Part shown: one piece after another, positions 1,055 to 47,986 of the stretch
Layout: the number at the start of each line of letters is the position of its first letter
Numbering within the stretch: position 1 is the first letter of the stretch
Origin: Candidatus Altarchaeota archaeon
GTDB lineage: Archaea > SpSt-1190
Reading direction: 5' to 3'
Assembly: GCA_030590165.1 (NCBI GenBank)
Contig: JAUUZA010000001.1
Span: forward strand, 1 to 59,552
DNA: 59,552 nt
Translations under genes and position numbers: made by a program
The notes under the pieces: generated by a model
Told to the model about the DNA's origin: nothing
Seen by the model: only the letters and a program-made list of their open reading frames with translations
Databases searched by the model: none

Positions 1055-1597
1055 AATTTTTACTAGGACCCCTGCCACAATAACTAAAATTAGAAGCAGA
1101 ACTGGTTGGGAAAGTTTAAAATTTTCATTCTCTTTCTTTAAATTCAAAGCTTCTATTTCATTTACTTCAAATTCAGCCAATTGAATCTTACTCTCATTAT
1201 ACAATCTTTCAGCTTCATCCAACCTTACCAATATTTCAGGATTATCTGTTGCTTCCCTTAAATCTTGAATTCTTTGAAAAAGCTCAATTTTCTCAGAATC
1301 AAATACATCAATTGTTGTTTCAGCCACTTCACCATTGAAATTTACTGAAATACTAAACTCACCAGTATCAAGAGGACTAAACACAACATATTCAGTCTTT
1401 CCTCTCGGACCGACCCAAACTCGTTTTATCTGCCAACTTAGATATGGACCATAAATCTCCAAGTCATAAACTTGACCTTCACCAATTAAGTCAATTTCAA
1501 AAGTTTCATTATCACCAACTTCCATACGGACATGAGTTGGTGAAATTGACAGGGCCATAGCACCTATAAGTAAAAGAGGAAATAATAGACGTTTCAT
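1043..1597 (-). CDS. Secreted, C-terminally membrane-anchored protein of unknown function
   Basis: The 184-aa product has an N-terminal signal peptide (KRLLFPLLLIGAMALSIS), then a beta-rich Ig-like or CARDB-like stretch of about 80 residues (VGDNETFEIDLIGEG, then TGEFSISVNFNGEVAETTIDV). A charged helical segment (about 105-155) probably forms a coiled coil, and a final hydrophobic span (LLLILVIVAGVLVKILL) leaves almost no cytoplasmic tail. This suggests an envelope protein held in the membrane with its fold outside. The ATG at 1597 lies 23-24 bases from the TTTATAAA box at 1617-1624, shared with the divergent gene at 1645. Function is unknown. Confidence 0.7.
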   Translation of the reverse strand: MKRLLFPLLLIGAMALSISPTHVRMEVGDNETFEIDLIGEGQVYDLEIYGPYLSWQIKRVWVGPRGKTEYVVFSPLDTGEFSISVNFNGEVAETTIDVFDSEKIELFQRIQDLREATDNPEILVRLDEAERLYNESKIQLAEFEVNEIEALNLKKENENFKLSQPVLLLILVIVAGVLVKILLG

Positions 1598-1616
1598 AGG
1601 TATCTTTAACCTTTTC

Positions 1617-1624
1617 TTTATAAA
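1617..1624. promoter_or_regulatory. Shared palindromic TATA box for two divergent genes
   Basis: TTTATAAA is a perfect palindrome centred at 1620.5. It lies 23.5 bases from the ATG at 1597 on the reverse strand and 24.5 bases from the GTG at 1645 on the forward strand. Both distances fit an archaeal TATA box driving a leaderless transcript, and no second candidate box is seen in the 47-bp gap. Confidence 0.65.
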
Positions 1625-1644
1625 AGTCTGTTGATTGCCCTAAT

Positions 1645-1983
1645 GTGGACAGATTACCCTCAAAGAGTGTTTTTATTTCTGAAATTAAGTCAAAAGACGA
1701 TAGGGTTAAGCTTTGTGGGAAAATTGTATCAATAAACCAAGAAAATGGAAGCCTTTCAATTGATGATAGCACGTCTAAAGTGGAGGTATTCTTAAATAAT
1801 CTTGAGTTAAAGAAAAATATAAAAAAATATAAATCAGAGGATCAAATAATGGTCATTGGTTGGGCAAAACCCACCGGAGTTGATGTTGAAGTCCTCCGAA
1901 AAATTGAGGGATTTGACTCGGCCCGTTACAAACAAGTATTAGAGGTGTGGAAAAATGTTCGAAGCAAAAATGAAAAATCCTGA
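1645..1983 (+). CDS. Small OB-fold nucleic-acid-binding protein (RPA-like)
   Basis: The 112-aa protein has the strand pattern of an OB fold: KSVFISEIKSKDDRVKLCGKIVSI, then SLSIDDSTSKVEVFLN and EDQIMVIGWAKPTGVDVEVLRKI. That resembles archaeal RPA-associated or tRNA_anti-type OB proteins. It starts at GTG 1645, 24-25 bases after the TTTATAAA box. Its last 29 bases overlap the start of the PCNA gene, so the two are co-transcribed. The context (Hef fragment upstream, PCNA downstream) suggests a role in replication or repair. The exact family is inferred. Confidence 0.65.
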   Translation: MDRLPSKSVFISEIKSKDDRVKLCGKIVSINQENGSLSIDDSTSKVEVFLNNLELKKNIKKYKSEDQIMVIGWAKPTGVDVEVLRKIEGFDSARYKQVLEVWKNVRSKNEKS

Positions 1984-2695
1984 AATAATGGTAGAGGCAT
2001 TAAAAGCCGCCTACGAATTGGTTAAAGATGAAGTTACTTTCAAAATAAGTGAAAACGGAATTATATTACGTGCCATGGACCCTGCAAATGTTGCAATGGT
2101 CATAATGGAACTAAAGAAATCTGCATTCAGTGAATTTAAACTGGAAAAAGAAAGTTTTATTGGAGTCAATATGGAACGTTTCATGCAAGTTCTTAAGCGT
2201 TCTAATAAATCCGATGAAATGTTATTAAGAATTTCAGGTGGAAAGATGGAAATAAAATATACTGGAAAAACTTCACGTAGATTTTCATTACCCTTACTCG
2301 CACTCGAAAGTGGACCAAGACCAGAACCAAGTCTAACATTTACAATTACAACCATTATGCCTTCAGACTCTCTTAAAAATGCAGTTGAAGATGCTTCAGT
2401 AGTTAGTGATGCTATAACTTTAGTTGGTGCCAATGATGAATTACATATTTTAGCTCAAGGTGACCTTGGGGCTGTTGAAACTATTCTAAAGAAAAAAGAA
2501 GGACTTAAAGAAATTAAAATTAAGGATAAAGCTCGTTCTAAATATTCTGTAGATTATTTACGAAAAATAGCTAAGACAAAAATTGGAAAAGATGTTGAAA
2601 TCAAATTCAAAAGTGATTATCCTTTAATGATTACTTTCACAAAACCAGAAGTGAAGATGGCATTTATTTTAGCCCCACGAATGGATGTTGAATAA
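1955..2695 (+). CDS. pcn: DNA polymerase sliding clamp PCNA
   Basis: The 246-aa product matches PCNA over its whole length. It starts MFEAKMKNPEIMVEALKA, contains GIILRAMDPANVAMVIMEL and the interdomain connector region around SGPRPEPSLTFT, and ends FTKPEVKMAFILAPRMDVE, the tail lining the PIP-box pocket. PCNA forms a ring that tethers DNA polymerase, ligase and nucleases to DNA. Its start lies inside the upstream OB-fold gene (29-base overlap), so translation is probably coupled. Only one PCNA is seen here, consistent with a homotrimer. Confidence 0.97.
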   Translation: MFEAKMKNPEIMVEALKAAYELVKDEVTFKISENGIILRAMDPANVAMVIMELKKSAFSEFKLEKESFIGVNMERFMQVLKRSNKSDEMLLRISGGKMEIKYTGKTSRRFSLPLLALESGPRPEPSLTFTITTIMPSDSLKNAVEDASVVSDAITLVGANDELHILAQGDLGAVETILKKKEGLKEIKIKDKARSKYSVDYLRKIAKTKIGKDVEIKFKSDYPLMITFTKPEVKMAFILAPRMDVE

Positions 2696-2698
2696 ATA

Positions 2699-3883
2699 TC
2701 AACTTTCATTCACTGTTTTCCCAACAAAATATCCGGGGTTAACTGTGTAAATTGGTTGACACATATTGAAAAACTCTTCTTTTCTTGATTCACAATATTC
2801 ATCAGCACAAGGTATCCCCCACTCATTATAAACGCAATATTCAGCAGATTTATTAAAATCAGCCCCATAATAAAACCAAATATAAAAGTGAATATTTTTG
2901 TATGCATTGACTTCAGGGTCCATACCAACAACACTCGCACCCTCAGGAATCTGAGAAAAAGCTTCCTCAGGAATTGCATTGAATGAAAAAACAGACTGAA
3001 CTAAAAACAGATTCATTATTATAATTAAAATAAGTACAATCTCATGCAATCTTTCAGAAATTGCAAACCTGTTCCATTTTTCAGAAATTACAATTGCAAT
3101 ATAAGGAAGAACATCAATAAAAAATCTTTCTTCCTTATGAGGCAGAAGTGTAAAATAAATTAATGCAGCCAAAAAACCAAGAGTGAATCGCGATTTAGAA
3201 AATAAAGCCAGTAATAAAAGAGGGGTCGCAAATAAAACAGTTAAATAAAATGTTGGTTCTTTTTCCCAAAAATCAATATAACTATTATTAATCAATGTTG
3301 ACGCTGCTCTCATTTGAAAAAAGGGACTTCCAAACAAAATCCAGATAACGCTAAAATAAACTGTTAAAGTTAATAATGCACCAATCCATTTTTTCTTATC
3401 TTTCCAACAAATGAAAGGAATTTGTAAAAAATAAGTGAAACGAGTTAATCCAGAAAATGCTGAAAAAACACCTCCAAGAATTCCTGAAAGTGAATAAGCT
3501 AATACAAAAAACAACATTGCGAGTATGTGACTAAGTGGCATATGTGAATGAGCAAAAAAGATTGGATGTGTTGCAATAATTAATCCTAAATACTTTCGTG
3601 AATCTTTAAATTTAAAAAAAGGAACAAGAGGAATAGCAGCAAAAATTAAAAATGCTAAAGCTTTCATAGTGAATGGCATTGGAAGCCCAATTCTCCAAAG
3701 TGCACCAAGTATAATAGGCCAAATTGGTGGACGATAATTGGAAACATAACCATAATTTGAAAATATTGACTTTCCGTATGCTAAATATTCAGAAGGATCC
3801 CATCCAACTACTATTGGTTTCAAAAAAAAAGATATAATTAATAAGGCGTAAAGCAACCAAAAAATTAACAATTTTCTTTGCAA
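2699..3883 (-). CDS. Polytopic membrane protein, probable GT-C glycosyltransferase
   Basis: The 394-aa protein has about ten hydrophobic spans. After the first span comes an external loop with WDPSEYLAYGKSIF and YRPPIWPIILG, resembling the acidic first-loop motif of dolichyl-phosphate-sugar mannosyltransferase-like GT-C enzymes. A later HKEERFFIDVLPYIAI also recurs in that superfamily. The C-terminal 70 or so residues are extracellular with several cysteines. It is the last gene of a reverse operon with a thioredoxin-fold protein (19-base overlap) and a GT2 enzyme, so lipid-linked glycan assembly or protein glycosylation at the envelope is likely. Substrate is unknown. Confidence 0.65.
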   Translation of the reverse strand: MQRKLLIFWLLYALLIISFFLKPIVVGWDPSEYLAYGKSIFSNYGYVSNYRPPIWPIILGALWRIGLPMPFTMKALAFLIFAAIPLVPFFKFKDSRKYLGLIIATHPIFFAHSHMPLSHILAMLFFVLAYSLSGILGGVFSAFSGLTRFTYFLQIPFICWKDKKKWIGALLTLTVYFSVIWILFGSPFFQMRAASTLINNSYIDFWEKEPTFYLTVLFATPLLLLALFSKSRFTLGFLAALIYFTLLPHKEERFFIDVLPYIAIVISEKWNRFAISERLHEIVLILIIIMNLFLVQSVFSFNAIPEEAFSQIPEGASVVGMDPEVNAYKNIHFYIWFYYGADFNKSAEYCVYNEWGIPCADEYCESRKEEFFNMCQPIYTVNPGYFVGKTVNES

Positions 3884-4500
3884 GCTAACGCCTCCAAATT
3901 ATCCAAACCAAGATAAGCATGACGTTTACCATCAATAATAATTGAAGGATATGAAGTAACATTATAAATTTTAAGAAGGGTATTAGCAACAGGATCATTA
4001 CTAGCTAATTCCATATTCACTGGAAAAATCAATACGTCCTCTTCATATTTTTTCTTTAAGTAAGTAAGTCTTTCAGACATTACATCACACTCCGGACAAT
4101 CAGGACCAAAAAAGAAAAGGATTAAACTATTATTCCAATCGCATTTTTCTTTAAAGTTTTTAGCAAAAAGCCAATATCTAACATTTGAAAGAAAATATTG
4201 ACGATATAAAAGTTGTTGTTGATCAATATCAAAGCGAGCGGCAGAGGTATATTTTTCATATCGTTCAAGTGAATCAGATAAATCCTTAATGGAATCATCA
4301 ATCAGTGGCTTCATTGAAGAACACCCAACATCATCAATCAACTGACTTTGTAAAAATAGTGAAGATGAATAGATTACCAATTCATCAATGTCTGCATCAA
4401 GCTTTTGACGCCTAAGATTATCCCAAAAAAGACCAAAGGACAATCCTGAAAAGAATATTAAAAACGTCAACAAACCAGCCAATATTGCTCTCTTCACCAT
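3865..4500 (-). CDS. Membrane-anchored thioredoxin-fold protein with CPEC motif
   Basis: The 211-aa product has one N-terminal span (AILAGLLTFLIFFSGLSFGLF), about 100 residues of helical extracellular region, and a thioredoxin-like domain from about residue 125 (SLILFFFGPDCPECDVMSERL). The CPEC active-site pair and the later NVTSYPSIIIDGKRHAYLG, with the cis-Pro loop TSYP, fit a redox fold. It probably acts outside the cell in disulfide chemistry. It overlaps both neighbours by 7 and 19 bases, which ties it to two glycosyltransferases. Confidence 0.75.
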   Translation of the reverse strand: MVKRAILAGLLTFLIFFSGLSFGLFWDNLRRQKLDADIDELVIYSSSLFLQSQLIDDVGCSSMKPLIDDSIKDLSDSLERYEKYTSAARFDIDQQQLLYRQYFLSNVRYWLFAKNFKEKCDWNNSLILFFFGPDCPECDVMSERLTYLKKKYEEDVLIFPVNMELASNDPVANTLLKIYNVTSYPSIIIDGKRHAYLGLDNLEALACKENC

Positions 4501-5717
4501 TTATTCTCCCTTTTTATCCATGAAACTGTGGCAAGTATTGTTGCCATTGAAAGAGCAAACCCATATGTAATTAAGAAGATTATGGCGTCAAACAAGTTTC
4601 CTCCTTTCTCTTCTGAAAATCTAAATGCAAAATAAAGAAAAGTAGATGTAATCAATAGAGTTACGGCAAAATAAAAAATAGTTTGTGGGTCTAAAATCAA
4701 TAAGTCCGGATTGAACTCTAAATTTAATAAATAAGGCATCCAATCAAAACCAACAGCCCTGAAAAAATAATAAACAGGTTCCATCCACTTAAAAAATCCC
4801 CAAACAAAAATTATGAGAAAGGCAATTGAGACTAAAAAATATAAGGATTTTAGAATAGTTTGACGCCCAAATTCATGTGAAACATTCATAGATTTTGGAT
4901 ACTTCCCAACAACATCAAAAAAACCAAGATGCCACCTTTTTCTCTGAGCTATTAATGTTTTCAAATCCCTAGGAATATCTGTTTTAACTATTGCTCGCGG
5001 ACTCATAATTATTTTATATCCTTTTTTTCTCATTCGATACACTATTTCAAGGTCCTCCGTAACAGAAGTTTCATCAAATCCACCAACTGCGCGTAAAGAC
5101 TCAGTTTTAAATAAGGAAAAGGGCCCAGGTGCAACTAATTGAGCATCAAATCCACTTAAAATATTTGAAAGATAGTTTCCATAAACATATTCAATTGCTT
5201 GAAGTCTTTCTAAAATTCCCTTAGTATTCTTTGCAACAACTGCAGGTGTTACAATATCATTTTCATTAGAAAATTTCAGAAGTTGAGATAAAGCATCTGG
5301 CTCTGCAAAAGAATCAGCATCCATTGTTACAATAAACGGTGCTTTTGTAAGCTTTAAAGCCGTATTAAGTGCTGCTGCTTTTCCCCTATTTTTCTTATGT
5401 TTTATGAGAGTTATTTTCAAATCCTTATGGTCTTTTGCAAACCTCTTGGCTTCAATCAGAGTATTATCTTTTGACCCATCATCAACTAAAATTACCCCTA
5501 ATTTCTCCTTTGAATATTCTAAATTATAAATTGATTTTAATGATTCATAAATATGTTTTTCTTCATTATAAGCAGGTAAGACTAAATCTACACAAACTTC
5601 GTCATTTGGAGATTCTGGTCTAGACTTATCTTCTAAATACATTAAAAGGAAATAAATTGAGATGAAAGTTGACGCTATCATAATAATCCACGAAAATAAC
5701 ATGAAAGGCGTCATCAT
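4494..5717 (-). CDS. Membrane family-2 glycosyltransferase
   Basis: This processive-type GT2 enzyme has VCVDLVLPAYNEEKHI and ILVDDGSKDNTL in the nucleotide-binding region, the metal-binding TMDADS, an acidic VTEDLEIVYRM and the QRKRW motif of cellulose/hyaluronan-synthase-like enzymes. One hydrophobic span precedes the catalytic domain and about four follow. The open frame extends to 5819, but those extra residues would overlap kae1. The Met pair at 5717/5714 sits about 25 bases from TTAAAATA at 5738-5745, so that start is preferred. It is first in the operon with the thioredoxin-fold and GT-C genes. Confidence 0.82.
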   Translation of the reverse strand: MMTPFMLFSWIIMIASTFISIYFLLMYLEDKSRPESPNDEVCVDLVLPAYNEEKHIYESLKSIYNLEYSKEKLGVILVDDGSKDNTLIEAKRFAKDHKDLKITLIKHKKNRGKAAALNTALKLTKAPFIVTMDADSFAEPDALSQLLKFSNENDIVTPAVVAKNTKGILERLQAIEYVYGNYLSNILSGFDAQLVAPGPFSLFKTESLRAVGGFDETSVTEDLEIVYRMRKKGYKIIMSPRAIVKTDIPRDLKTLIAQRKRWHLGFFDVVGKYPKSMNVSHEFGRQTILKSLYFLVSIAFLIIFVWGFFKWMEPVYYFFRAVGFDWMPYLLNLEFNPDLLILDPQTIFYFAVTLLITSTFLYFAFRFSEEKGGNLFDAIIFLITYGFALSMATILATVSWIKRENKW

Positions 5718-5737
5718 TAAATTAATTAGTAAAAATC

Positions 5738-5745
5738 TTAAAATA
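5738..5745. promoter_or_regulatory. TATA-like box between GT2 gene and kae1, possibly shared
   Basis: TTAAAATA is the only strong TATA-like element in the 45-bp gap. It is centred about 24.5 bases from the reverse-strand Met at 5717 and 21.5 bases from the kae1 GTG at 5763. It is less symmetrical than the boxes at 1617, 41687 and 46818. Confidence 0.45.
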
Positions 5746-5762
5746 GCTTTACACTTATTATT

Positions 5763-7104: not shown

Positions 7105-7142
7105 AAATTAAGTAAATGTGAATAATAAATAAGCGTTGGGGG

Positions 7143-7685: not shown

Positions 7686-7763
7686 AATTATGAACAAAAT
7701 GCGGGATTTAAAAGAGTGGCGGTTTCACTAATGAAAAAAATAAAATAAAAAAAATAAAAAGAA

Positions 7764-7779
7764 ACCCAGCAAGCTGGGT
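7764..7779 (-). terminator. Hairpin terminator of the S-layer gene
   Basis: A perfect 7-bp stem (ACCCAGC / GCTGGGT) with a 2-base loop lies 8 bases after the S-layer stop codon. On the reverse strand it is followed by a long run of T with few interruptions (7731-7763). A similar CCAGC/GCTGG hairpin follows rps2 at 32987-33001. Confidence 0.7.
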
Positions 7780-7787
7780 CCCTATTT

Positions 7788-15158: not shown

Positions 15159-15713
15159 TTAAAAACTTGGTTTCTGGAAAGTTTCGGCTTCAACTTCAGC
15201 CGCCTCAATAGTATTTTCAAGCCACCCAATTGTACTCTCAATTTCTTCAATTGTTCTTAGACCGGGAATTATTGCCTTACCTGTTCTAAACACTAAAATT
15301 CTTGTTGAACCCTTCCTTAATTTCATTCCAGGGAATGCTTCAGGGTCATATTCAGAATCGGGAATAGCATAAGCCAATTCATGAAGGTGAAGACTCTTAT
15401 GGAGGTCAACACTTACCACAATATTTCTAACTTCTAAATTAGCATCCATAATTTTATACCCATTTTCTCTAAGAAGTGAAACTAAACTTTCAACATGTTC
15501 ATGAGCAAGCGCAATACTTCGTGAACCACTACATACAAAGTTACCTGAACTGTATATCAAAAACCCGACGCTAAATCTCTTGAGCCTAAAGGCCGGAAAT
15601 TTTCCCGGTTCATAAACCCCACCTGAGATTTTATTATACATATCAACAAGATCTAATTTGTCCGATAATCGTCCCGTAACTACGACATTTTGCACTTTAT
15701 ACTCAGGCTCCAC
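15159..15713 (-). CDS. tbp: TATA-box-binding protein
   Basis: The 184-aa protein shows the two imperfect direct repeats of the TBP saddle: VQNVVVTGRL with YEPGKFPAFRLKR, then VRNIVVSVDL with YDPEAFPGMKLRK. Each repeat ends with an SG(S/N)- or TG(K)-containing strand (FVCSGSRS; FRTGKAIIPGLR). TBP nucleates the archaeal preinitiation complex on the TATA boxes seen before most first genes here. It is the last gene of the 17921-15159 operon and ends two bases from the convergent trpS. Confidence 0.97.
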   Translation of the reverse strand: MEPEYKVQNVVVTGRLSDKLDLVDMYNKISGGVYEPGKFPAFRLKRFSVGFLIYSSGNFVCSGSRSIALAHEHVESLVSLLRENGYKIMDANLEVRNIVVSVDLHKSLHLHELAYAIPDSEYDPEAFPGMKLRKGSTRILVFRTGKAIIPGLRTIEEIESTIGWLENTIEAAEVEAETFQKPSF

Positions 15714-17702: not shown

Positions 17703-17921
17703 TCATCCACCCATTATTAACGCGATTGCAATTAACCCAATCACTGCTACTCCTACTAACAGTAAAGGTTCTTGACTAAGGAGCTCGTTTAGTATATTTA
17801 AAAGCTCTCCGGTGGTGTACGCATAATAAATACCACCAATAAGCCCAGCAAAAAGAAGGAAAGATAACATCCGCTTCCAAAACGGTTTTGGTCTCAGTTC
17901 AGGAGGTAAGTCTTCATTCAC
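17703..17921 (-). CDS. Small two-span membrane protein, first gene of the operon
   Basis: The 72-aa product has a charged N-terminus (NEDLPPELRPKPFWKRM) and two hydrophobic spans (LSFLLFAGLIGGIYYAYTTG and PLLLVGVAVIGLIAIALIMG). No family is recognised. The ATG is 24-25 bases from TTATAA at 17943-17948, so this gene probably starts the transcript that continues into rpl37ae, rpoP, pcc1, pfdB, UPF0147, sepF, zpr1 and tbp. Its stop codon overlaps the region just before the L37Ae start. Confidence 0.65.
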   Translation of the reverse strand: MNEDLPPELRPKPFWKRMLSFLLFAGLIGGIYYAYTTGELLNILNELLSQEPLLLVGVAVIGLIAIALIMGG

Positions 17922-17948: not shown

Positions 17949-17969
17949 GCTTGCTCGCTGGGTCATAAT

Positions 17970-18024
17970 GAGTGATGACAACAAATAGGCTGATGAAATA
18001 TGATGAAGCCGACCCAGTCTGACT
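17970..18024 (+). ncRNA. Box C/D guide RNA for 2'-O-methylation
   Basis: All four boxes are present in canonical order and spacing: C box GTGATGA (17972-17978), D' box CTGA (17990-17993), C' box ATGATGA (18000-18006) and D box CTGA (18019-18022). The two guides are 11 bases (CAACAAATAGG) and 12 bases (AGCCGACCCAGT), the archaeal length. The fifth-base rule predicts methylation of the U in CCUAU of a target CCUAUUUGUUG and of the fifth base, G, in a target ACUGGGUCGGCU. The targets themselves were not identified. A forward TATA box lies about 25 bases upstream and a T-rich run follows. It fills the gap between two reverse-strand genes. Confidence 0.85.
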
Positions 18025-19717: not shown

Positions 19718-19740
19718 CACACAAAGAATAGCCTAATTCT

Positions 19741-19748
19741 TTTATATG
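19741..19748. promoter_or_regulatory. TATA box shared by gatE and the SPFH gene
   Basis: TTTATATG is centred near 19743.5-19744.5. It lies about 24-27 bases from the two candidate gatE GTG codons on the reverse strand and about 24 bases from GTG 19768 on the forward strand. No other box is present in the gap. Confidence 0.55.
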
Positions 19749-26193: not shown

Positions 26194-26694
26194 TTACCAA
26201 TTATATGAAACTTCTTCAGTTTGAGTACCAGAATCCTTCCATCCTTCCTTTGAAAGTTCAAGAGCCTTCTTTACAGTTGGAAGAGTTCTCTCAAGCTCAT
26301 TTGTCACAAAAGTAATGGTTTCAACCATTATTTGTTCTGGGTTTTCACTTGTTGTGGCTTCAAAAGCACGAAGTGAAAAAGTCTTGTGCAAAACTACACA
26401 AGTCTTCAAAACATCCATCAATTCAGTTTTCATATGTTTTACAAATTTATTATCTTGAGATAAAATGAAATCAGTTGGCGAAATAAAACCTATCATTCCA
26501 TTTGCTAAGTGTATTGGGGCTTTTCTTGAAAACGCAAAAAGACTTAGAACACTATCAACATCATCTTCTTTTGGGAAACCAAAAACAGACATAAATGTTT
26601 TCAATTCAGGTAAATCCTTATGTTTCTTTTTTAATTTAGAATATTCAACTCTAATTTCTTTAATTCCCGTCATACACTTTACATAAATAGTCAT
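26194..26694 (-). CDS. Cytosolic protein of unknown function
   Basis: The 166-aa protein lacks signal peptide and spans. It has a charged N-terminal helix (EYSKLKKKHKDLPELKTFM), a central alpha/beta region (HLANGMIGFISPTDFILS) and a long C-terminal helix (ELERTLPTVKKALELSKEGW). No family is recognised. The 53-bp gap to the divergent gene at 26748 has TTTAAATA at 26721-26728, possibly shared, though the 30-base distance to this start is long. Confidence 0.55.
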   Translation of the reverse strand: MTIYVKCMTGIKEIRVEYSKLKKKHKDLPELKTFMSVFGFPKEDDVDSVLSLFAFSRKAPIHLANGMIGFISPTDFILSQDNKFVKHMKTELMDVLKTCVVLHKTFSLRAFEATTSENPEQIMVETITFVTNELERTLPTVKKALELSKEGWKDSGTQTEEVSYNW

Positions 26695-26747
26695 TTATAA
26701 GGCTTAAAGACGGTTAATCTTTTAAATAACTACTTTAAAATAAAAAC

Positions 26748-35818: not shown

Positions 35819-36508
35819 TTATTCCTCCTTTATCATTACTTCGCCCTTAGTGGCGTCTCCAAGTTCAGTCATTATATCGACCTTTCTTCCACTTGGAATT
35901 TCTATTGTTGCTTGAAGTGAACCATTGGCAAGCCAACTTTCCTTCAAGACTTTTCCTAAACTTTTCACTTTCCCATATAGAGAAGGTGCAAATTTTGCAG
36001 GAACTACTATTCTTAATTTTGTAGTCCCAAACTTAAGTGGCAAAACCAACCTAAGTTCTTTTACTATTCCATTTAATTGTTCAGAAGCTGAGCTTAATTC
36101 AATTTTAACCTTTGCTTCATTAAAAGCCCAAAGAATTCGGTCACGTGTATGTGGTAAATTATTTCTTGGGTCTACTGAATTTTGAACTACGAGTTCAATC
36201 AATTGTAATTTCACTTTTTCTACCATTTTCTTTTTTTGTTCAGTAGTTGGATGAAATTTTCCTTTCTTCAATATTTCTTTAATAATTACTTCCAATTCAA
36301 GAGTTCCAAATGCCTTTTGTAAATCACTTTCACTGGCCGTGTCTGCTCGGTTTGCATTTTTAAAAATTTCAAAAACAGCAAGAGATTCTCGAAGCCTAAT
36401 TTCTTTACCTTCCCTAAATGCTAAAACTGCATCAGGGTCAGCTAAAATCTCAAAATGAATCCCATTCTTATCTATACTAACATTAGACGCATCTTCAATC
36501 TTTACCAT
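35819..36508 (-). CDS. Ribosome maturation protein SBDS (Sdo1)
   Basis: The 229-aa protein shows the three SBDS domains: HFEILADPDAVLAFREGKEI with LRESLAVFEIFKNANRAD, a helical middle QLIELVVQNSVDPRNNLPHT, and a C-terminal ferredoxin-like domain with LVLPLKFGTTKLRIVVPA. It promotes release of anti-association factor eIF6 from the large subunit. Location between proteasome alpha and Rrp4 is the classical archaeal order. Confidence 0.96.
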   Translation of the reverse strand: MVKIEDASNVSIDKNGIHFEILADPDAVLAFREGKEIRLRESLAVFEIFKNANRADTASESDLQKAFGTLELEVIIKEILKKGKFHPTTEQKKKMVEKVKLQLIELVVQNSVDPRNNLPHTRDRILWAFNEAKVKIELSSASEQLNGIVKELRLVLPLKFGTTKLRIVVPAKFAPSLYGKVKSLGKVLKESWLANGSLQATIEIPSGRKVDIMTELGDATKGEVMIKEE

Positions 36509-37211
36509 TTACCATCGCCGCCAATTCCTCACCAACAAGTTTATGGAAACCGTCTTTAGTAATTTGAGTAGCTTCAACGCGCTTCGTTGAGAATTTATCT
36601 TTGAGGACACCCTTCAAAGCTTTCATTCCCAAAGCAAAAGCTTTGTCTAAATTCATATTTGGTAAATATTCTTTATCTAAAATTCTCATTACTTCAACTC
36701 GACCCTCACCTACTGCAGTTGCAGCCCATTCGGTTGGTGTTCCACTTGGGTCAATTTCATAAATTCGTGGTTCAGTATCATAACCAGTTAAGAGTACAGT
36801 TACTCCAAAAGGTCTTATCCCTCCGTATTGGGTAAAAATTTGCATATAACTACTCAAATCGTAAACCATCTGTTTCATTGTTGCTGGTTCGTCAAATGAT
36901 AATCTATGACGTTGTGCTTGGAGTCTAGCTTGTTCAATTAATTTTCTTCCATCTGCAACCAATCCAATGGTGGCTGCTCCAATATGATCATCAATTTCAT
37001 ATAATTTTTCTATGCTTCGTGCCATAATTAAACTATGAAGAACTTTTTTATCTGCAATCATTGCAATTCCATTTTTTGCTTTGATTGCTATGACTGTTGC
37101 CCCTCTCTTTACTGCTTCCATAGCATATTGAACCTGAAATAACCTCCCATCAGGACTAAATACTGTAACTCCGCGGTCATACCCCATTCCATCTGGCGCC
37201 ATAATTTGCAT
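36495..37211 (-). CDS. psmA: Proteasome alpha subunit
   Basis: The 238-aa protein begins with YDRGVTVFSPDGRLFQVQYA, the alpha-subunit helix and YDRG loop that bind activator ATPases, then AMEAVKRGATVIAIKAKNG. It forms the outer rings of the 20S proteasome. The start has an AAGGTGA ribosome binding site at about 37218-37224. The TTTAAA box at 37246-37251 gives a leader of about 13 bases. It heads the psmA-sbds-rrp4-rrp41-rrp42-rps2 operon. Confidence 0.97.
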   Translation of the reverse strand: MQIMAPDGMGYDRGVTVFSPDGRLFQVQYAMEAVKRGATVIAIKAKNGIAMIADKKVLHSLIMARSIEKLYEIDDHIGAATIGLVADGRKLIEQARLQAQRHRLSFDEPATMKQMVYDLSSYMQIFTQYGGIRPFGVTVLLTGYDTEPRIYEIDPSGTPTEWAATAVGEGRVEVMRILDKEYLPNMNLDKAFALGMKALKGVLKDKFSTKRVEATQITKDGFHKLVGEELAAMVNGKD

Positions 37212-40727: not shown

Positions 40728-40742
40728 AATTTAAAAAACCAT

Positions 40743-41666
40743 TCACTTTATTTTATTAAACAATCTTTCAGTGAATGTTTCCCAATATTTTTTCTTAACA
40801 AATCCGCCACTTGCTTGAGGATGACCACCACCATCACCAATTCCCTTTGTAAGTTCCTTAATTAAATTATTTAAATCGTCCCCATGCCTAAAACTAAGTC
40901 TAACAGTATCCCTCTCTTCTTGAGCAATAATTATCATCCTATCTGGATATTTTGATTTTGCCCACGCGGCAACTAAACTTTTAATTTTATGATTTGACTT
41001 GAACTTCAAAAGAATTAACTTATCTGTAATAATTTCATTACCAAATATGGATTCCACTTCATTCAGAATTTCCTTCTTAATTTTTTTTAATTGAGCTGCC
41101 TTTCCCTTTCCATTAAGAATTTCTTTATATGTTTTAGAAGATTTCAACACTTCAAGTGCTAAAAGTGCTCCTTTCGCCCTATATTTCGAAATTGCACAAT
41201 CAATCATTAATGCCATTTCACCAAGTAAATGATTTGCTAAATAAATTTGATCAACTTTTGGAATAAGTTCAGGAACCTCATCTTTCACTATTTCCCAAAA
41301 TTGTTTTGGCACCCTGTCAACACACCAATCTGCAACAACCCCGATAGCTGAAACCCAAGCCAATTTCTTTTCACCAAAAAGCGCATAAGTTGTAAAACTA
41401 ACTGGCCACTCAAATCCAGATTGTCTTGGGTTTGAATAAAATAAATTTAACTTATCTGAAATATGATGGTCAATCACTAAATTTATTTTTTCACTGGACT
41501 TCACATTTGAAATGTCCAATGAAATATTATTTTTACCCGTAAATTCAACATAGGCACCAAGACTTGGGTGTAAAGAATATTCTAAATTTAAACGGTCAAG
41601 TTCCTTTGAAACAAAGAAAGCAGAAACCACCCCATCACTATCGGCATGAAAATGAAGCTTTATCAC
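40743..41666 (-). CDS. DHH/DHHA1 phosphoesterase (RecJ- or nanoRNase-like)
   Basis: The 307-aa protein has the DHH motifs LHFHADSDGVVSA and VIDHHISDKL, a VVADWCVD motif and the DHHA1 substrate motif GIGDGGGHPQASGGF. Archaeal relatives include RecJ-like GAN/HAN nucleases and nanoRNases, acting on short nucleic acids or ssDNA ends. It starts at GTG 41666, 23-24 bases from TATATA 41687-41692, shared with the divergent gene. Confidence 0.88.
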   Translation of the reverse strand: MIKLHFHADSDGVVSAFFVSKELDRLNLEYSLHPSLGAYVEFTGKNNISLDISNVKSSEKINLVIDHHISDKLNLFYSNPRQSGFEWPVSFTTYALFGEKKLAWVSAIGVVADWCVDRVPKQFWEIVKDEVPELIPKVDQIYLANHLLGEMALMIDCAISKYRAKGALLALEVLKSSKTYKEILNGKGKAAQLKKIKKEILNEVESIFGNEIITDKLILLKFKSNHKIKSLVAAWAKSKYPDRMIIIAQEERDTVRLSFRHGDDLNNLIKELTKGIGDGGGHPQASGGFVKKKYWETFTERLFNKIK

Positions 41667-41686
41667 TCTAAAAGGTGCGAGAAAAG

Positions 41687-41692
41687 TATATA
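41687..41692. promoter_or_regulatory. Palindromic TATA box shared by DHH gene and pilin operon
   Basis: TATATA within GTATATAAG is centred at 41689.5: 23.5 bases from GTG 41666 (reverse) and 25.5 bases from ATG 41715 (forward). The start codons are 49 bp apart and no other good box is placed for either. Confidence 0.65.
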
Positions 41693-41714
41693 AGTTTATA
41701 GGGCGATATCTTTA

Positions 41715-42236
41715 ATGATGGCCGGAAATCCCCCAGTAACGTCTCTAAAGAAAATAAAGACTGATATTGAGAACCTAAAACGTCAAGTAAATCCTGTAGA
41801 TACTCAACTCCTCCTAAGGCTCCTCGATTATATTGAGTCGAGAGAGAAAATGACAAAAGAACTTTTAATTCATATGAATGCCGTCGAAAATCATTTAGTT
41901 CGAACTACCGAAATGCTTCAAAAACTTCCTCAAGTGAATATTGGACTCCTAGCCGATTCACTTCAAGCTATGATACCTAAATTAGATGAAATTGCATATA
42001 ACACTAGAAAGATGGTGGATTATCTTGAAATTGCTGCTGATGTTGGGGATGACGATGATTCTGAAGAAAAAGAAAATCCAATTAAACTTGTTGAAGAAAA
42101 AAAAGAAAAACCTAATGAAAAACCTTCAACAATAGACCAATTAAGTAATATTGAAACTCAAAATAAATCATTAATAGGCGCATTAAGCAAGCTTTCAGAA
42201 AATCTAGACAAAATGGACAAAACGGGGAGCGAATGA
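41715..42236 (+). CDS. Cytosolic coiled-coil protein heading a pilin-like operon
   Basis: The 173-aa protein is helical throughout, with heptad-like stretches (SLKKIKTDIENLKRQVNPVD; LLRLLDYIESREKM; LADSLQAMIPKLDEIAYNTR) and an acidic linker before a short final helix. There is no signal peptide. It precedes three pilin-like genes, with ATGA overlap to the first. It might be a cytoplasmic assembly or regulatory factor for the filament, as some archaellum accessory proteins are coiled coils, but no homology to FlaCDE is visible. Confidence 0.6.
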   Translation: MMAGNPPVTSLKKIKTDIENLKRQVNPVDTQLLLRLLDYIESREKMTKELLIHMNAVENHLVRTTEMLQKLPQVNIGLLADSLQAMIPKLDEIAYNTRKMVDYLEIAADVGDDDDSEEKENPIKLVEEKKEKPNEKPSTIDQLSNIETQNKSLIGALSKLSENLDKMDKTGSE

Positions 42237-42691
42237 AGGGTGCAACTCCTATTATTGCAGTAATTTTATTACTTTTAATTACAATTGCGGCCGGAGGTTC
42301 AACTTATTTATGGTTGAGTCGTACTCAAAGCAAACTTTTTACTCAAACAACAACAGGAATTGATGAAAGCTCAAAAGATGTCTATGGAAAAATAACTGTG
42401 GTCAGTATTTGGAATATAACAACTGAACTTTGTCTTTTAATTAGAAATAGTTCAGACCAAGATATAACTTACAAGGTGGCAGACCTTGAAAGAATGGCAG
42501 TCTTGGTTGACAAAATTCCGTGTACTTTCAATACAACTGCGCTCAGCGATATTCGTCAAAGTGAAGTAGTTAGTTTTTGTATATACAATACAACTTCAGC
42601 ATGCAGATATGATGGAACTGAAACATCCATACTCATAAAAGTTGAGCCGCCTTTTGGTAATGGTGATGATTATGAATTTACGTACCCATAA
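42233..42691 (+). CDS. Pilin-like protein 1 (class III signal peptide)
   Basis: The 152-aa protein starts MKG-ATPIIAVILLLLITI, a typical archaeal prepilin signal with cleavage expected after Gly3 and a hydrophobic assembly helix carrying the ATPIIAV pattern. The remainder is a beta-rich, N-glycosylation-rich head (WNITTE, RNSS, FNTT, YNTT) with four cysteines. It overlaps the coiled-coil gene by ATGA. Confidence 0.82.
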   Translation: MKGATPIIAVILLLLITIAAGGSTYLWLSRTQSKLFTQTTTGIDESSKDVYGKITVVSIWNITTELCLLIRNSSDQDITYKVADLERMAVLVDKIPCTFNTTALSDIRQSEVVSFCIYNTTSACRYDGTETSILIKVEPPFGNGDDYEFTYP

Positions 42692-42704
42692 AAACTCAGG
42701 AAAA

Positions 42705-43358
42705 ATGAAGGGAGTCAGCGAATTAGTTGGAAATGTCCTTATGCTCTTAGTAGTTACCGGACTAATTTCAGAAGCCTTTCTTTTTGGAATGCCAATTTTA
42801 CAAAAACGAATGGACCAAGCATCAGTTAGTTATACTGAAAATTCATTAATTGAAGTTGCTGATGCATTTGAAGCCATTGCAAGAGAAGGCGGAGACACAA
42901 AAATCAGACTTGAATCTCAATCTCGGTTTGGTACGCCACCTGAAATTAAAATAACTCATGACGCAGTAGGTTACTATCTTGAATTGCGTGGGGCAACAAA
43001 AATTACTCATTACGCACCATACGATGTTCCTTTAAACGATTTTCTTGAATCCGTAAAAGACGGGGAAGAAATTGTAGGAACTCTTGGAATAAATAAAGCC
43101 ATAGTTGTTACTGGGCGTTCAACCAAATTATCAGGTGGAATAAGAAATGTAATGACTGTTCGACCAAGACCAATTAGAAGTCCTTCAAGCCCAGTGATTA
43201 CCTTAATTGAAATTACACCTGCTCGTGGAAAGAGTACGAAAACAACCTTACCCACAGTAGTTTATGTGAAGAAAGAAGGCGAGAGATTAGAATCACGTCT
43301 AGAAAATAATGAAACCCTTACCTACAAGATAATTTCTCTTGAGGTGGGATTTGAATGA
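42705..43358 (+). CDS. Pilin-like protein 2 (class III signal peptide)
   Basis: The open frame begins at 42642, but the Met at 42705 gives MKG-VSELVGNVLMLLVVTG, an archaeal prepilin signal, and lies 13 bases after the previous stop. The mature helix continues LISEAFLFGMPILQKRM. The 200-residue head is beta-rich with a basic segment (TVRPRPIRSPSS). It overlaps pilin 3 by 4 bases. Confidence 0.78.
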   Translation: MKGVSELVGNVLMLLVVTGLISEAFLFGMPILQKRMDQASVSYTENSLIEVADAFEAIAREGGDTKIRLESQSRFGTPPEIKITHDAVGYYLELRGATKITHYAPYDVPLNDFLESVKDGEEIVGTLGINKAIVVTGRSTKLSGGIRNVMTVRPRPIRSPSSPVITLIEITPARGKSTKTTLPTVVYVKKEGERLESRLENNETLTYKIISLEVGFE

Positions 43359-43762
43359 AGGGTGTAAGTTCAGTTATTGAAACAGTTCTAACCGCAGCGG
43401 CCACTATTTTATTTTTAGTTTATCTTGTTGAAGCCTTAAATGATTTTTCAGACAGAGTAGTGAATGAAAGAATGAGAGTTGCAATGTCAATTGATTCACA
43501 AAAAGTAATCAATGCAATACTCTTGGCAAGAAGAGAAGTAAGAGACGGTCAAGCTAAATTTTATGTATCTCTTTCAGATATAAATTATGAAATGTCCGTT
43601 CAAGATGGCGCTCTTATTACAAAAAATCGGAATCATTTAACTAATACTTCAATTTTCAATATGGACTCTTATCTAACATTTTCAGGAAAAATAATCAATT
43701 CAAAAAATCAAAAACCCTATGTTATAAGTTCGGGAAATCAAATAATTCTCGGTGTTGAATAA
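43355..43762 (+). CDS. Pilin-like protein 3 (class III signal peptide)
   Basis: The 135-aa product starts MKG-VSSVIETVLTAAATIL, again with Lys-Gly at the expected prepilin peptidase site, followed by FLVYLVEALNDFSDRVVNER. Its head is small. The three pilin-like proteins differ in head size (about 125, 190 and 100 residues), suggesting a filament of major and minor subunits. Its stop overlaps the bud32 start as TAATG. Confidence 0.75.
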   Translation: MKGVSSVIETVLTAAATILFLVYLVEALNDFSDRVVNERMRVAMSIDSQKVINAILLARREVRDGQAKFYVSLSDINYEMSVQDGALITKNRNHLTNTSIFNMDSYLTFSGKIINSKNQKPYVISSGNQIILGVE

Positions 43763-44337
43763 TGAAAGAAATCGGTGCAGAAGCAGAAATTACTCTTGAA
43801 AATGGTTTTATTTTAAAAAAAAGAATCGTAAAAAAATATAGAGAACCGCAATTAGACTTGCGAATTAGACGTGAACGAAATAAAAAGGAAGCTCGTCTAT
43901 TAGTTAAAGCGTCTCAAAAAGTGAATGTTCCAAAAATAATAGATACAAGTGAATTTTCAATTAAAATGGAATTCATTAAAGGTATAAAACTAAAAGACAA
44001 AGAAAATCTCAAGGGACTTGAAAAAAGGATGGGTGAACAAATTGGATTACTTCACAGTCTTAAAATATTTCATGGTGACTTAACAACTTCAAATATATTA
44101 TTAAAAAAAGATGAAATTTATTTAATTGATTTTGGTCTGGCAGATAGAGGAAAAATTGAAGACTTTGCAACAGACCTAAAAGTTCTATTTGAATGCGTAA
44201 AAGCGAGTCATACTGGATTTTCAGAAACCTCCTTTTTTGAAGGTTACTCCAAACAAATGTTAGAACACAATCAAGTATTTACTCGCCTAAAAAAGGTATA
44301 TGAACGCGGACGATACCGCATTAAATCGTCTCAATAA
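43762..44337 (+). CDS. bud32: Bud32 kinase/ATPase, KEOPS subunit
   Basis: The 191-aa protein is the minimal atypical kinase Bud32: GAEAEITLENGFILKKRIVK, YREPQLDLRIRRERNKKEAR, catalytic HGDLTTSNILL (Asp106, Asn111), DFGLADRGKIEDFATDL (Asp123) and the conserved CVKASH. It acts as a P-loop-like ATPase with Kae1 in t6A synthesis. It is separate from kae1 (5763) and coupled to the pilin operon by TAATG, an unexpected partner. The C-terminal end (GRYRIKSSQ) overlaps the AMP phosphorylase gene by 17 bases. Confidence 0.95.
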   Translation: MKEIGAEAEITLENGFILKKRIVKKYREPQLDLRIRRERNKKEARLLVKASQKVNVPKIIDTSEFSIKMEFIKGIKLKDKENLKGLEKRMGEQIGLLHSLKIFHGDLTTSNILLKKDEIYLIDFGLADRGKIEDFATDLKVLFECVKASHTGFSETSFFEGYSKQMLEHNQVFTRLKKVYERGRYRIKSSQ

Positions 44338-45811
44338 TAACATTCCTTGAAATTAATGGATCATTTTCCTTTAGGAATTTTTCAATTAATGTAATACGAT
44401 CTTTTACGGGTGTTATAATTCTTAATATTTTTTTACCTTTCTTCACTTTTGACCCCGAAAGAGCAAGAAGTTCAACACCTGCTCCTTTTATTGCAGGAGC
44501 TCCTGCAAGTCTTGCAAGTTGAGAAATTATGTTTGAATCATAATAAAGATAAGAAGTAGACACCTGCGAAAATACATCAACAGAATATTTACCAATTTCA
44601 ATGTCCTTTGCTTGAATATCAGGATTTCCACCCTGTGCTTTTATTATTTGTTTAAACTTTTGATAAGCCTTTCCTGAATCTAGAATTTTTTTTGCAAACG
44701 CATAACCATTACGCTTTCCAACCATATCAAATATTTCAGCAGCAAGTCTTAGAGATTTTTCACGCAGGTCTTTTGGACCCTTACCTTGAAGGACTGTTAT
44801 TACATCTCTTGCTTCAAGTGAAGGACCAACCCCCTTTCCAATTGGTTGAAAACCGTCAGTAATTACACTTCTAACTTCCATCCCAAGTCTCTTCCCTAAA
44901 TATTGAAAACGATGAGCTAAATTTTTTGCAGCCTTTGGATCTTTAACTTTTGCACCCATAGGAATATCTATTAACACTTTTTGTGAACCTGCTGATTTTT
45001 TCTTTGCTAAAATTGAAGCAAGTAAAAATGAAGTTGGATCAAGTCTCAACGGATACCTAAGTTTTAATAAAATATCATCAACTGGAGCAAGATTCACTGA
45101 ACCTCCCCAAATCATTGCAGCGCCAACTTTTTTAACAATTTTTTTCATATCTTTTGCAGAATATTCAATATTGCATAAAACTTCCATTACATCGGCAGTC
45201 CCTGCAGGGCTTGTTATTGCACGACTGCTTGTTTTTGGAAAAAGATATCCAGCGGCCGCAATAATAGGTATAACAATAGGAGTTGTTCTATTTCCAGGAA
45301 CCCCACCAATACAATGTTTATCAACAATGGGTCCTTTTGAAAAAGAAATAGTTTTACCAGCATCAACCATTGCACGCGTCATTGCTTCCTCTTCCTCAAA
45401 ACTGAGTCTTTGAACATAAGCACTAGCCACAAAATATGCAGCTTCAACTGAACTAAGTTTATTTTCCATTAAATCAAAAATAATTTCCCTAATTTCATTA
45501 CGTTTAAGAGGAGTACCCAAGAGTCTTTTTCTAATATATTTTACTGATTTTGGTTTTGTAAGAAGGGAAATCTTCACTTTTTCAGCTATACCGTCCTCCC
45601 ATACTTCTTTTGAAACGCCAATTTCATTCAGAGATACTGCACTTTTACATAAATTCACTACACCGACTAATTTCTTTTTATTAAAAGAAAGTTGAATACG
45701 GTCACCAACATTAATATTGAATTTTCTAGCATCTTCATATCTTAAATAAACTATACCGTGTCCATCTGTTTCCATTTCAACTTTTTTAACTTTAAACATC
45801 ATTTTTACCAT
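44321..45811 (-). CDS. deoA: AMP phosphorylase (archaeal thymidine-phosphorylase family)
   Basis: The 496-aa protein has KHCIGGVPGNRTTPIVIPII, SSRAITSPAGTADVMEVLCN and WGGSVNLAPVDDILL, matching archaeal AMP phosphorylase, and an extra N-terminal 80-residue domain characteristic of it. AMP phosphorylase converts AMP and phosphate to adenine and ribose-1,5-bisphosphate, the first step of the archaeal AMP pathway ending in type III RuBisCO. The isomerase and RuBisCO are not in the window. The start overlaps the pelA stop by 7 bases. Confidence 0.93.
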   Translation of the reverse strand: MVKMMFKVKKVEMETDGHGIVYLRYEDARKFNINVGDRIQLSFNKKKLVGVVNLCKSAVSLNEIGVSKEVWEDGIAEKVKISLLTKPKSVKYIRKRLLGTPLKRNEIREIIFDLMENKLSSVEAAYFVASAYVQRLSFEEEEAMTRAMVDAGKTISFSKGPIVDKHCIGGVPGNRTTPIVIPIIAAAGYLFPKTSSRAITSPAGTADVMEVLCNIEYSAKDMKKIVKKVGAAMIWGGSVNLAPVDDILLKLRYPLRLDPTSFLLASILAKKKSAGSQKVLIDIPMGAKVKDPKAAKNLAHRFQYLGKRLGMEVRSVITDGFQPIGKGVGPSLEARDVITVLQGKGPKDLREKSLRLAAEIFDMVGKRNGYAFAKKILDSGKAYQKFKQIIKAQGGNPDIQAKDIEIGKYSVDVFSQVSTSYLYYDSNIISQLARLAGAPAIKGAGVELLALSGSKVKKGKKILRIITPVKDRITLIEKFLKENDPLISRNVIIETI

Positions 45812-46797
45812 CTCTTCAAACCGGCAATTCCACCAAGACCATCAAGTCGCGATTGAGTATCTTTATTTCTACCAATAAGCATAATTTTTCCCCCTGTATA
45901 TTTTATCTTTTCGATAATACTCCGGAGTTTTGAATATTTCTTTGATTTTATTGACTCTGAAATAAATTTAGATGAAACTACTAATTCTAAAACATTTTTT
46001 TGTTCTACAAAATTAAGAACATCGTCCCACCCATAAAAAGCTTTATTATTATGAATATTATTAAAAACCCGATCGACTGCTTTTTGTTCTTCTGCTTCAC
46101 GAATTACTGCACCAATTTTTTCCAATGCTCCCCTTGAAATAACTTCACGCATTCCAGATTCACTCACTGAACTTGCTCCTTCAACAACATGTCGCATCTC
46201 CAAACTTGATGAAAATTTATCCTTAGTGAATCCAGGTCCGGCAACAACAACATATTCAGGTGAAATTTCTTTCAACCTCATTTTTATTTGCCCAAAGAAT
46301 GAACGATAATCTTCAACTTCGTCCGAACGTTTTGAAGGTAACCCACTCTTAATCCAGAATTTCTTACCCCCATGAACTATCAAAGCTTCATCCCTATCAA
46401 GAAGAACAAAAGCCACTTCAACCTGTTTCAACTTTGACTTCTTTAACATATCAATGTCTAGTGGACTCAAATCTTTCCAAATTTCCACTATTGATTTTTC
46501 ATCAATTGAAAAGCTATGACTCCCCTTAATATCCTCAGGACCTTCAACAATCTCCCCTTTAATCCTAAGATTTCCCGTATATTCCTGAAACTTCGTGGAA
46601 GCTACAGAAAGTTTAAGAAACATTGGTTTTTTTTCGGATTCAGACCTATCCCCTAATGAAAGTTTGATTTTACGAAGGGAGCGCATCCCAACAAGGTCGC
46701 CCTGTTTTAAAAGTTCAGAAATAAGCCAAAGGTCGTCTAAATTCTCGGGATTTAGCTTAACGTGGCCTTTTTTGATGTCGAGAGTAAGTATTCTCAC
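45805..46797 (-). CDS. pelA: Pelota (Dom34) mRNA surveillance factor
   Basis: The 330-aa protein starts MRILTLDIKKGHVKLNPENL and has the eRF1-like domains (FVLLDRDEALIVHGGKKFW; VVVAGPGFTKDKF; SGMREVISRG; KIMLIGRNKDTQSRLDGLGG). Pelota rescues stalled ribosomes with aEF1A and ABCE1. It starts at GTG 46797, 23-24 bases from TTTAAA 46818-46823, and is first in an operon with AMP phosphorylase. Length (330) is a little short of the family's usual 345-350. Confidence 0.95.
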   Translation of the reverse strand: MRILTLDIKKGHVKLNPENLDDLWLISELLKQGDLVGMRSLRKIKLSLGDRSESEKKPMFLKLSVASTKFQEYTGNLRIKGEIVEGPEDIKGSHSFSIDEKSIVEIWKDLSPLDIDMLKKSKLKQVEVAFVLLDRDEALIVHGGKKFWIKSGLPSKRSDEVEDYRSFFGQIKMRLKEISPEYVVVAGPGFTKDKFSSSLEMRHVVEGASSVSESGMREVISRGALEKIGAVIREAEEQKAVDRVFNNIHNNKAFYGWDDVLNFVEQKNVLELVVSSKFISESIKSKKYSKLRSIIEKIKYTGGKIMLIGRNKDTQSRLDGLGGIAGLKRW

Positions 46798-46817
46798 AAA
46801 AAATTTATCTCGCTACT

Positions 46818-46823
46818 TTTAAA
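46818..46823. promoter_or_regulatory. Palindromic TATA box shared by pelA and a surface-protein gene
   Basis: TTTAAA within CTTTTAAATACT is centred at 46820.5: 23.5 bases from pelA GTG 46797 and 26.5 bases from GTG 46847. The two start codons are exactly 50 bp apart. Confidence 0.65.
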
Positions 46824-46846
46824 TACTAAGCTTACTTCATCCTTAA

Positions 46847-47986
46847 GTGAAAGGCGTAGGAATTCCTGAAATTGTAATTGTATTGGGACTTTTAATTGTA
46901 TTAATCGCAGGTTTTCTACCCTCTGGAGCGCCTTCACAATCTAAAGAACTCCTTTTACTCAGCAAACAGGCAGGACCAATTGGTGCACAGGGATTCAATT
47001 ATGACCATATCCCGTTGGCCTCAAATTTAATTCTTTCAAAGGGTGTTGATGGTTCTCCTCTTTTTATTAAAAACAATCAAGTTGAAGTTGCAAAGGGGAT
47101 GATAACAACCCAAGAACAAGAAATTGAATTCTCAATCCCTTCAACTACTATTGATGAATTAAGTTCAGCAACACTTTCATTAACAATTGTTGAAACTAAT
47201 GAATATGGTCCTTTGAAAATTTTTCTTAATAATAAAGAAATTTGGTCTGACCTTGTTGAAGCCTCAGAATCTTTAAATATTCCACTGCCTTTAGAGGACT
47301 TATCTGAAAGCAATCTAATAAAAATTACAGCCGGATCATCTGGATGGAAAATTTGGTCCCCAACTTATTATATATTGGAAAAAATTCAAATAAAAGAAAA
47401 ATTAACTTCAGGTGAAGAAGCTAACTTTAATTTTGAACTCACCGATGAACAATTGGAAAAATTTGACAGAGGACGAATTTACATAGGTAATGTTAATCCT
47501 ATAATTCAAGGTGAACTTGCAATAATTCTAAATGACGAACGAATAATTTTTAGAGGTATCCCCGGAAAAGCAAGTTTTATAACTAGTTTCTCATCTGGTG
47601 CACAAAAAGAAAATACACTAACATTCAAACTTCTTGAAGATGGACATTATGACTTACGAAATCTCGAAGTCATTATTTTCACTGCAACAAATTCAACAGG
47701 CGGATTTTCAACAGAATTCACTATTCCAGTTGAAGAACTCTCAAAAATGAGAGCCGGAACAAAGGAAGGTTTAATTGAAATTGAAATTCTTGAAACCTCA
47801 GAAAATCTTTTAGAAATAATTTTGTCAGGAGAAACAGACACCGAATTATACAATAATATCCCTGAAAAGGGTAAAATTTCATTAAAATTCACAGGATTTG
47901 AAGCTACAAAAGATAACATTCTTACAATAAGAAGTAGCGGAGAATACAACCTAGGAACAATCAATATTAAATTGGTGGAGAAATGA
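46847..47986 (+). CDS. Large surface protein with prepilin-like N-terminus
   Basis: The 379-aa protein starts MKG-VGIPEIVIVLGLLIVLIAGF: Lys-Gly followed by a hydrophobic helix, like the three pilin-like proteins at 42233-43762. The rest is beta-rich, with two similar modules of about 110 residues (LTIVETNEYGPLKIFLNNKE; FRGIPGKASFITSFSSGAQ; ending DNILTIRSSGEYNLGTINIK), resembling carbohydrate-binding or jelly-roll domains. Substrate is unknown. It overlaps the lipoprotein gene by ATGA. Confidence 0.65.
   Translation: MKGVGIPEIVIVLGLLIVLIAGFLPSGAPSQSKELLLLSKQAGPIGAQGFNYDHIPLASNLILSKGVDGSPLFIKNNQVEVAKGMITTQEQEIEFSIPSTTIDELSSATLSLTIVETNEYGPLKIFLNNKEIWSDLVEASESLNIPLPLEDLSESNLIKITAGSSGWKIWSPTYYILEKIQIKEKLTSGEEANFNFELTDEQLEKFDRGRIYIGNVNPIIQGELAIILNDERIIFRGIPGKASFITSFSSGAQKENTLTFKLLEDGHYDLRNLEVIIFTATNSTGGFSTEFTIPVEELSKMRAGTKEGLIEIEILETSENLLEIILSGETDTELYNNIPEKGKISLKFTGFEATKDNILTIRSSGEYNLGTINIKLVEK

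Follow-up and report, generated by a model that had tools for sequence, protein, structure and literature searches.

Divergent pairs of predicted leaderless genes in a small-genome archaeon appear to share single near-symmetrical TATA boxes

The window (the whole stretch of DNA that was analysed, 59,552 nucleotides) is contig C35 of the draft archaeal genome G000 (724 kb, 64 contigs, 87.6% complete, ~33% GC), and carries three divergent gene pairs in which a single TATA box lies between the two start codons. These pairs encode a 184-amino-acid (aa) protein and a 112-aa OB-fold protein, a DHH/DHHA1 family protein and a 173-aa conserved protein, and the eRF1-related protein pelota and a 379-aa protein, respectively; coordinates, box positions and promoter scores are given in Table 1. 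A sequence-only reading of the window had proposed that each pair shares one box, and the pairs and boxes were found as claimed, with gaps of 47, 48 and 49 bases. Gap denotes the number of bases between the start codons, and the coordinate difference is one larger (48, 49 and 50). Judged by the pelota protein, the closest named relatives were metagenome-assembled genomes labelled Candidatus Altiarchaeota (DPANNHV_H2.bin.71, 60% identity; DPANNHV_H2.bin.136, 46%), together with archaeon SpSt-1190 (40% identity).

Comparisons were performed with G001–G006, which represent other genera of the same family, and with G007, G008 and G009, members of the class. For G000, ~603 kb of readable sequence (~83% of the draft) was covered, sampled as stretches; four small contigs read N. 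Genes were called with a coding-potential caller that used no promoter information, and all starts are predicted. This gave 707 genes, 110 divergent pairs and a coding density of 0.90. TFB and two TBP genes were present in G000; both TBP genes (window 15159–15713, minus strand, and G000:C32:7651–8154) exceeded the Pfam cut-off in both repeats, in a genome of only 0.72 Mb.

The promoter model was built by expectation maximisation on 137 co-directional genes, with divergent pairs excluded. The resulting motif comprised a B-recognition element (BRE) of sequence AAAA, 3 bases, and then the TATA element TTTTAAA, whose centre had a clear main position 23–24 bases from the start codon. A Shine-Dalgarno-like motif was found at 3% of box-bearing genes and 7% of shared-box pair starts, versus 61% of operon-internal genes. 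The fixed distance of the box and the lack of Shine-Dalgarno sequences make first genes look leaderless; for internal genes, translation by way of Shine-Dalgarno sequences is indicated. With this geometry, one box serving two leaderless genes predicts ~46–51 bases between the starts, as observed. GTG accounted for 55% of shared-box pair starts, compared with 28% of the remaining divergent starts (p=8e-5; G000, G005 and G001), and was commoner in leaderless genes generally than in operon-internal genes (G000 and G005).

Among the 110 divergent gaps of G000, none fell at 36–44 bases and 15 fell at 45–50 (45 and 46 once each, 47 three times, 48 six times, and 49 and 50 twice each), the next being 53, 54, 54 and 58. 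From the density at 52–100 bases, 6.0 gaps were expected at 45–51 (p=0.0014); leaving out the window, and with it the pairs that had prompted the analysis, 12 were found against 5.3 expected (p=0.008). The same class held 7/50 divergent pairs in G005 and 8/67 in G001, and the three genomes pooled gave 30 pairs versus 10.4 expected (p=6e-7). The scan statistic alone was not significant in G005 (p=0.23) or G001 (p=0.17), nor was the narrow range of 48–51 bases proposed by the sequence-only reading significant alone in G005 (p=0.32), so that significance derives from the 45–51 range and from pooling. The sharp genome-wide start-to-start peak that had been defined beforehand as the test was accordingly found, at 45–51 bases, and it recurs in G005 and G001. 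Refinement of starts with coding score and promoter model combined raised the class to 24/110 in G000, 8/50 in G005 and 13/67 in G001 (45/227 in total), and no gaps between 51 and 57 remained in G000. With permuted decoy models the total stayed at 30, versus 45 with the real model. Start-codon choice or AT-rich spacers are extremely unlikely to have produced the peak artificially: the starts are predicted and alternative ATG, GTG and TTG codons are common, but the caller was blind to promoters, wrong starts would blur a peak rather than sharpen it, and the decoy models do not create one. The peak appears in genomes of 33% (G000), 36% (G005) and 52% GC (G001), and AT-richness is not its cause, since G001 also shows it. 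The recurrence of predicted shared boxes throughout the genome was thus confirmed, and about one in five divergent pairs of this small-genome archaeon appears to be driven from a single near-symmetrical TATA box.

In every 45–51 pair of all three genomes, the stronger side scored >3. Median scores of the weaker side were 4.4, 4.6 and 4.1 (G000, G005 and G001, respectively). When the lower score of two operon-internal starts was taken instead, the values were −4.4, −4.3 and −9.5 (p=5e-11 in G000, with the same pattern in G005 and G001). The box centres of two partner genes, located relative to the start codons, coincided within 0–3 bases in most pairs. In total score, the weaker side exceeded the reverse of single promoters in G000 (p=0.014) and G001 (p=0.0045), but not significantly in G005 (p=0.25). 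The two sides differed by ~2.7 bits in G000, and an asymmetric bidirectional promoter with one direction stronger is the reading that would fit. Such a box might instead work in one direction only, the other gene being transcribed with a leader from a box inside its neighbour, or hardly at all. The difference in bits and a weaker-side BRE near background are in keeping with this, but both starts lie at the leaderless distance far above expectation, both are devoid of Shine-Dalgarno motifs, the pelota spacing is kept on both sides (see below), and a one-way box would give no spacing peak; we regard it as quite unlikely.

Support was lacking for two further candidate features. One was that shared boxes are more palindromic than ordinary ones: the TATA part of single promoters alone scored 5.1 forward and 3.4 reversed, nearly as good, so that TATA is near-symmetrical in all promoters and shared boxes are not special in this respect. 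The other, equal BREs on both sides, was not supported statistically; single cases such as the DHH/173-aa spacer carry A- and T-tracts on both sides of the box. The case for shared boxes is one of spacing and conservation.

The pelota and 379-aa genes are divergent in seven family genomes, with 49–51 bases between the starts. The core CTACTTTTAAATACT (CGCTACTTTTAAATACT) or a close variant is retained in this spacer across the family, the distance is conserved within 1–2 bases on both sides, and conservation extends beyond the TATA element to an adjacent CGCTAC. In most other family genomes the DHH/173-aa spacer holds AAAAGTATATAAGTTT or a sequence close to it, with the box 28–29 bases from the 173-aa start; it is a near-perfect 25-bp palindrome in G004 and is shorter in G002. 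Of the three main boxes, that of pelota/379-aa is conserved family-wide, and that of DHH/173-aa largely so. The box at 1617–1624 is retained in G005 (L111), where the two GTG start codons have a gap of 47 bases. The palindromes might be taken for operator sites of a regulator rather than TATA boxes, in view of the long palindromes that make up some spacers (CTGGAAAACTATATAAGTTTTCCAG in L069) and of the conservation of CGCTAC past the TATA element. Against this, the core fits the general TATA model of the genome and stands at TATA distance from both starts, and the sequences outside the TATA element vary among pairs, which makes operator sites a very unlikely explanation. As separate observations, the 379-aa gene is also divergent from pelota in G007, G008 and G009, and the L069 sequence, a near-perfect 25-bp palindrome upstream of the DHH gene, is a candidate for a symmetric BRE-TATA-BRE promoter.

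The geometry, the spacing peak, the box model and conservation, all established at the level of sequence, together with the absence of Shine-Dalgarno motifs at shared-box starts, point to bidirectional archaeal promoters in which one near-symmetrical TATA box would serve two leaderless genes. We give this reading a probability of just under 0.9; the proposal of the sequence-only reading that such boxes occur genome-wide is upheld by spacing peak, promoter model and conservation alike. TBP would bind the box in either orientation, TFB would join one side or the other with the help of an A-rich BRE, for the most part stronger on one side than on the opposite one, and transcription by RNA polymerase would begin ~24 bases away in the direction chosen. 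Most first genes being leaderless, the start site would coincide with the start codon, which would place two genes on one box 45–51 bases apart. Several points weigh against such promoters. For gaps of 45–51, the search range itself partly forces the two predicted boxes to lie within 7 bases of each other; TATA is near-symmetrical everywhere, and a good reverse TATA score alone therefore proves little; and the BRE of the weaker side did not score significantly better than the reverse side of single promoters (p=0.10, 0.33 and 0.16), so that transcription in the weaker direction may be poor. Transcription in both directions, like the occupancy by TBP and TFB, is inferred from these sequence features.

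Among pairs for which at least one ortholog was found, shared-box pairs had remained divergent neighbours in 9/12 cases, versus 19/73 for other divergent pairs (p=0.002). Some other orthologous pairs have drifted to 63–110 bases in relatives; these losses of short spacing, with the shorter DHH spacer of G002, indicate that the shared-box class turns over. Partners appear mostly unrelated by annotation (PheRS/HTH protein, DUF2797/wyosine radical-SAM enzyme, APH kinase/DUF72 and CorA/unknown). We consider it likely that the pairs are a by-product of compaction, 45–51 bases being the shortest spacer that gives two leaderless genes a promoter, with no selected coupling. This competes with linked expression of the partners and not with the shared box itself. 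It agrees with the high coding density, the small genome, the position of the peak at the low end of the gap distribution, the unrelated partners and the drifted pairs. The greater retention of neighbours and the conserved sequence of the pelota spacer count against it; both are also expected if the box simply cannot be split, and the former follows simply from partners being inseparable without loss of the promoter. Compaction is the simplest cause; coupling of expression is possible, and competition between the two mRNAs, as the sequence-only reading proposed, is hypothetical. That the arrangement is a selected genome-wide device, in which TFB orientation at each box would impose a one-or-other choice that couples and balances a pair of coding genes, with the two TBP paralogs perhaps as modulators, we consider quite unlikely.

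Divergent transcription at promoters of symmetrical sequence is reported for both bacteria and archaea (Warman et al. 2021, doi 10.1038/s41564-021-00898-9, as cited in PMC12825309 and PMC10268837), and here, as in such promoters, symmetry would let one core element start both ways. In Pyrococcus furiosus, BRE-TATA-BRE promoters with one TATA box have sense and antisense starts 49–50 bp apart; with 49 bp between the starts, output in vitro was near-equal both ways, and the second BRE is less prominent (PMC6640164). The single near-symmetrical TATA box, the TTTAAA core and the spacing of ~49–50 bp are alike here, as would be a weaker BRE on the second side and the explanation proposed, symmetric TBP binding with direction set by TFB (PMC6640164). 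Because the genes look leaderless, the start codon was taken as the start site when spacings were compared with the P. furiosus start sites. The systems differ in that the second transcript analysed in P. furiosus was mostly antisense RNA at head-to-tail genes, whereas here two leaderless coding mRNAs are predicted; leaderless transcripts are not predominant in P. furiosus, and its promoters were studied by RNA-seq and in vitro transcription, whereas those described here are known from sequence alone (PMC6640164). With this precedent, and with symmetry-driven divergent transcription described, the mechanism is already known. The suggestion of the sequence-only reading that the shared boxes depart from archaeal promoter logic was overstated, TATA near-symmetry being general and BRE-TATA-BRE promoters being on record in P. 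furiosus. Divergent promoters of most bacteria share a −10 box, with 18 bp from one start site to the other (PMC10268837), in contrast to the TATA box and ~49 bp found here. At Escherichia coli bidirectional promoters, the two polymerase orientations are mutually exclusive at one promoter; at all five promoters tested, basal activity did not suffice for the two directions to compete, and the divergent RNA was repressed when one direction was strongly activated (PMC12825309).

In other archaea (named loci plus five genomes), 12/234 divergent pairs fell at 45–51 bases after refinement (~5%), versus ~20% (45/227) in G000, G005 and G001 (p=2e-6), a ratio that is rough because the samples from other archaea are small and biased to pelota neighbourhoods, with starts less certain. 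Examples outside the family were found in Archaeoglobi, Hadarchaeum, Diapherotrites and Micrarchaeota records. A limited literature search turned up no report of such a peak in start-codon spacing among divergent pairs of archaea, which is not proof of absence. New here are this peak and the frequent, conserved deployment of such predicted promoters at pairs of leaderless coding genes. This suggests that bidirectional TATA promoters, which in P. furiosus were described chiefly as origins of antisense RNA, are able to act as a standard driver of two coding genes. The peak would make bidirectional promoters recognisable from sequence, a cheap test for archaeal genomes with leaderless genes, uncultivated lineages included; the spacing rule can serve to correct start codons in gene calling, and the pairs offer a natural setting in which to ask how TFB picks direction.

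Table 1. Predicted shared TATA boxes of the window and the genes of the three main pairs. Box centre is the distance in bases to the first and second start; scores are those of the promoter model.
Feature	Position	Strand	Starts	Gap	Box centre	Scores	Remarks
184-aa protein	1043..1597	-	1597				leaderless; no Pfam match
Box TTTATAAA	1617..1624		1597 (-), 1645 (+)	47	23.5, 24.5	7.3 (-), 3.1 (+)	8-bp palindrome
112-aa OB-fold protein	1645..1983	+	1645				leaderless GTG; PF01336, just under cut-off
Box TTAAAAT	5738..5744		5717 (-), 5763 (+)			6.0, 5.2	glycosyltransferase / TsaD
Box ATTAATAA	14056..14063		14035, 14093			forward 1.8	AspRS-type synthetase (leaderless) / TyrRS/TrpRS-type synthetase (~10-nt leader)
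Possible box ATTATAA	17942..17948		17921 (-), ~17968 (+)			3.7, 7.8	reading frame / C/D-guide-like RNA
Box TTTTATAT	19740..19747		19717 or 19720 (-), 19768 (+)			8.8, 8.0	GatE / SPFH protein
Box TTTTAAAT	26720..26727		26694 (-), 26748 (+)			5.7, 10.1	~5-nt leader / leaderless
Box TTTTTAAA	37244..37251		37211, 37273				PsmA / methyltransferase (leaderless GTG)
DHH/DHHA1 family protein	40743..41666	-	41666				GTG start
Box TATATA within AAAAGTATATAAGTTT	41687..41692		41666 (-), 41715 (+)	48	23.5, 25.5	6.7, 7.1	flanked by an A-tract and a T-tract on opposite sides
173-aa conserved protein	41715..42236	+	41715				ATG start
Pelota (eRF1-related) protein	45805..46797	-	46797				GTG start; PF03463, PF03465
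Box TTTTAAAT	46817..46824		46797 (-), 46847 (+)	49	23.5, 26.5	6.1, 6.4	core TTTAAA
379-aa protein	46847..47986	+	46847				GTG start; no Pfam match; N-terminal hydrophobic segment

Further pairs in the window were assigned a single box (Table 1). The glycosyltransferase/TsaD and GatE/SPFH pairs had been put forward as weaker examples; a shared box is predicted for each, and the model scores make both good examples. It is the promoter model that places the glycosyltransferase start at 5717, whereas 5642 is favoured by the coding model alone; the same applies to both starts of GatE and SPFH, whose box predictions have the same centre and for which 19648 and 19813 are favoured by coding alone. The two synthetase genes fit one box if the leader on one side is allowed for, with a weak forward score. 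For the reading frame starting at 17921, a box shared with a guide RNA is plausible; the RNA is a candidate recognised by eye only (~17968–18022), which has a closing GGGTC/GACCC stem and TGATGA/CTGA motifs and gave no Rfam match. The pair at 26694/26748 was absent from the earlier list, and its two predictions share one centre. At the proteasome alpha gene PsmA (36495–37211), whose short leader carries a GGTGA Shine-Dalgarno sequence, the box is common to the leaderless methyltransferase gene, in agreement with the earlier description of this pair as leaderless on the forward side only. Both GTTTTTAAACC and this layout of one leadered and one leaderless gene are conserved in G005 (L112), with 59 bases between the starts.

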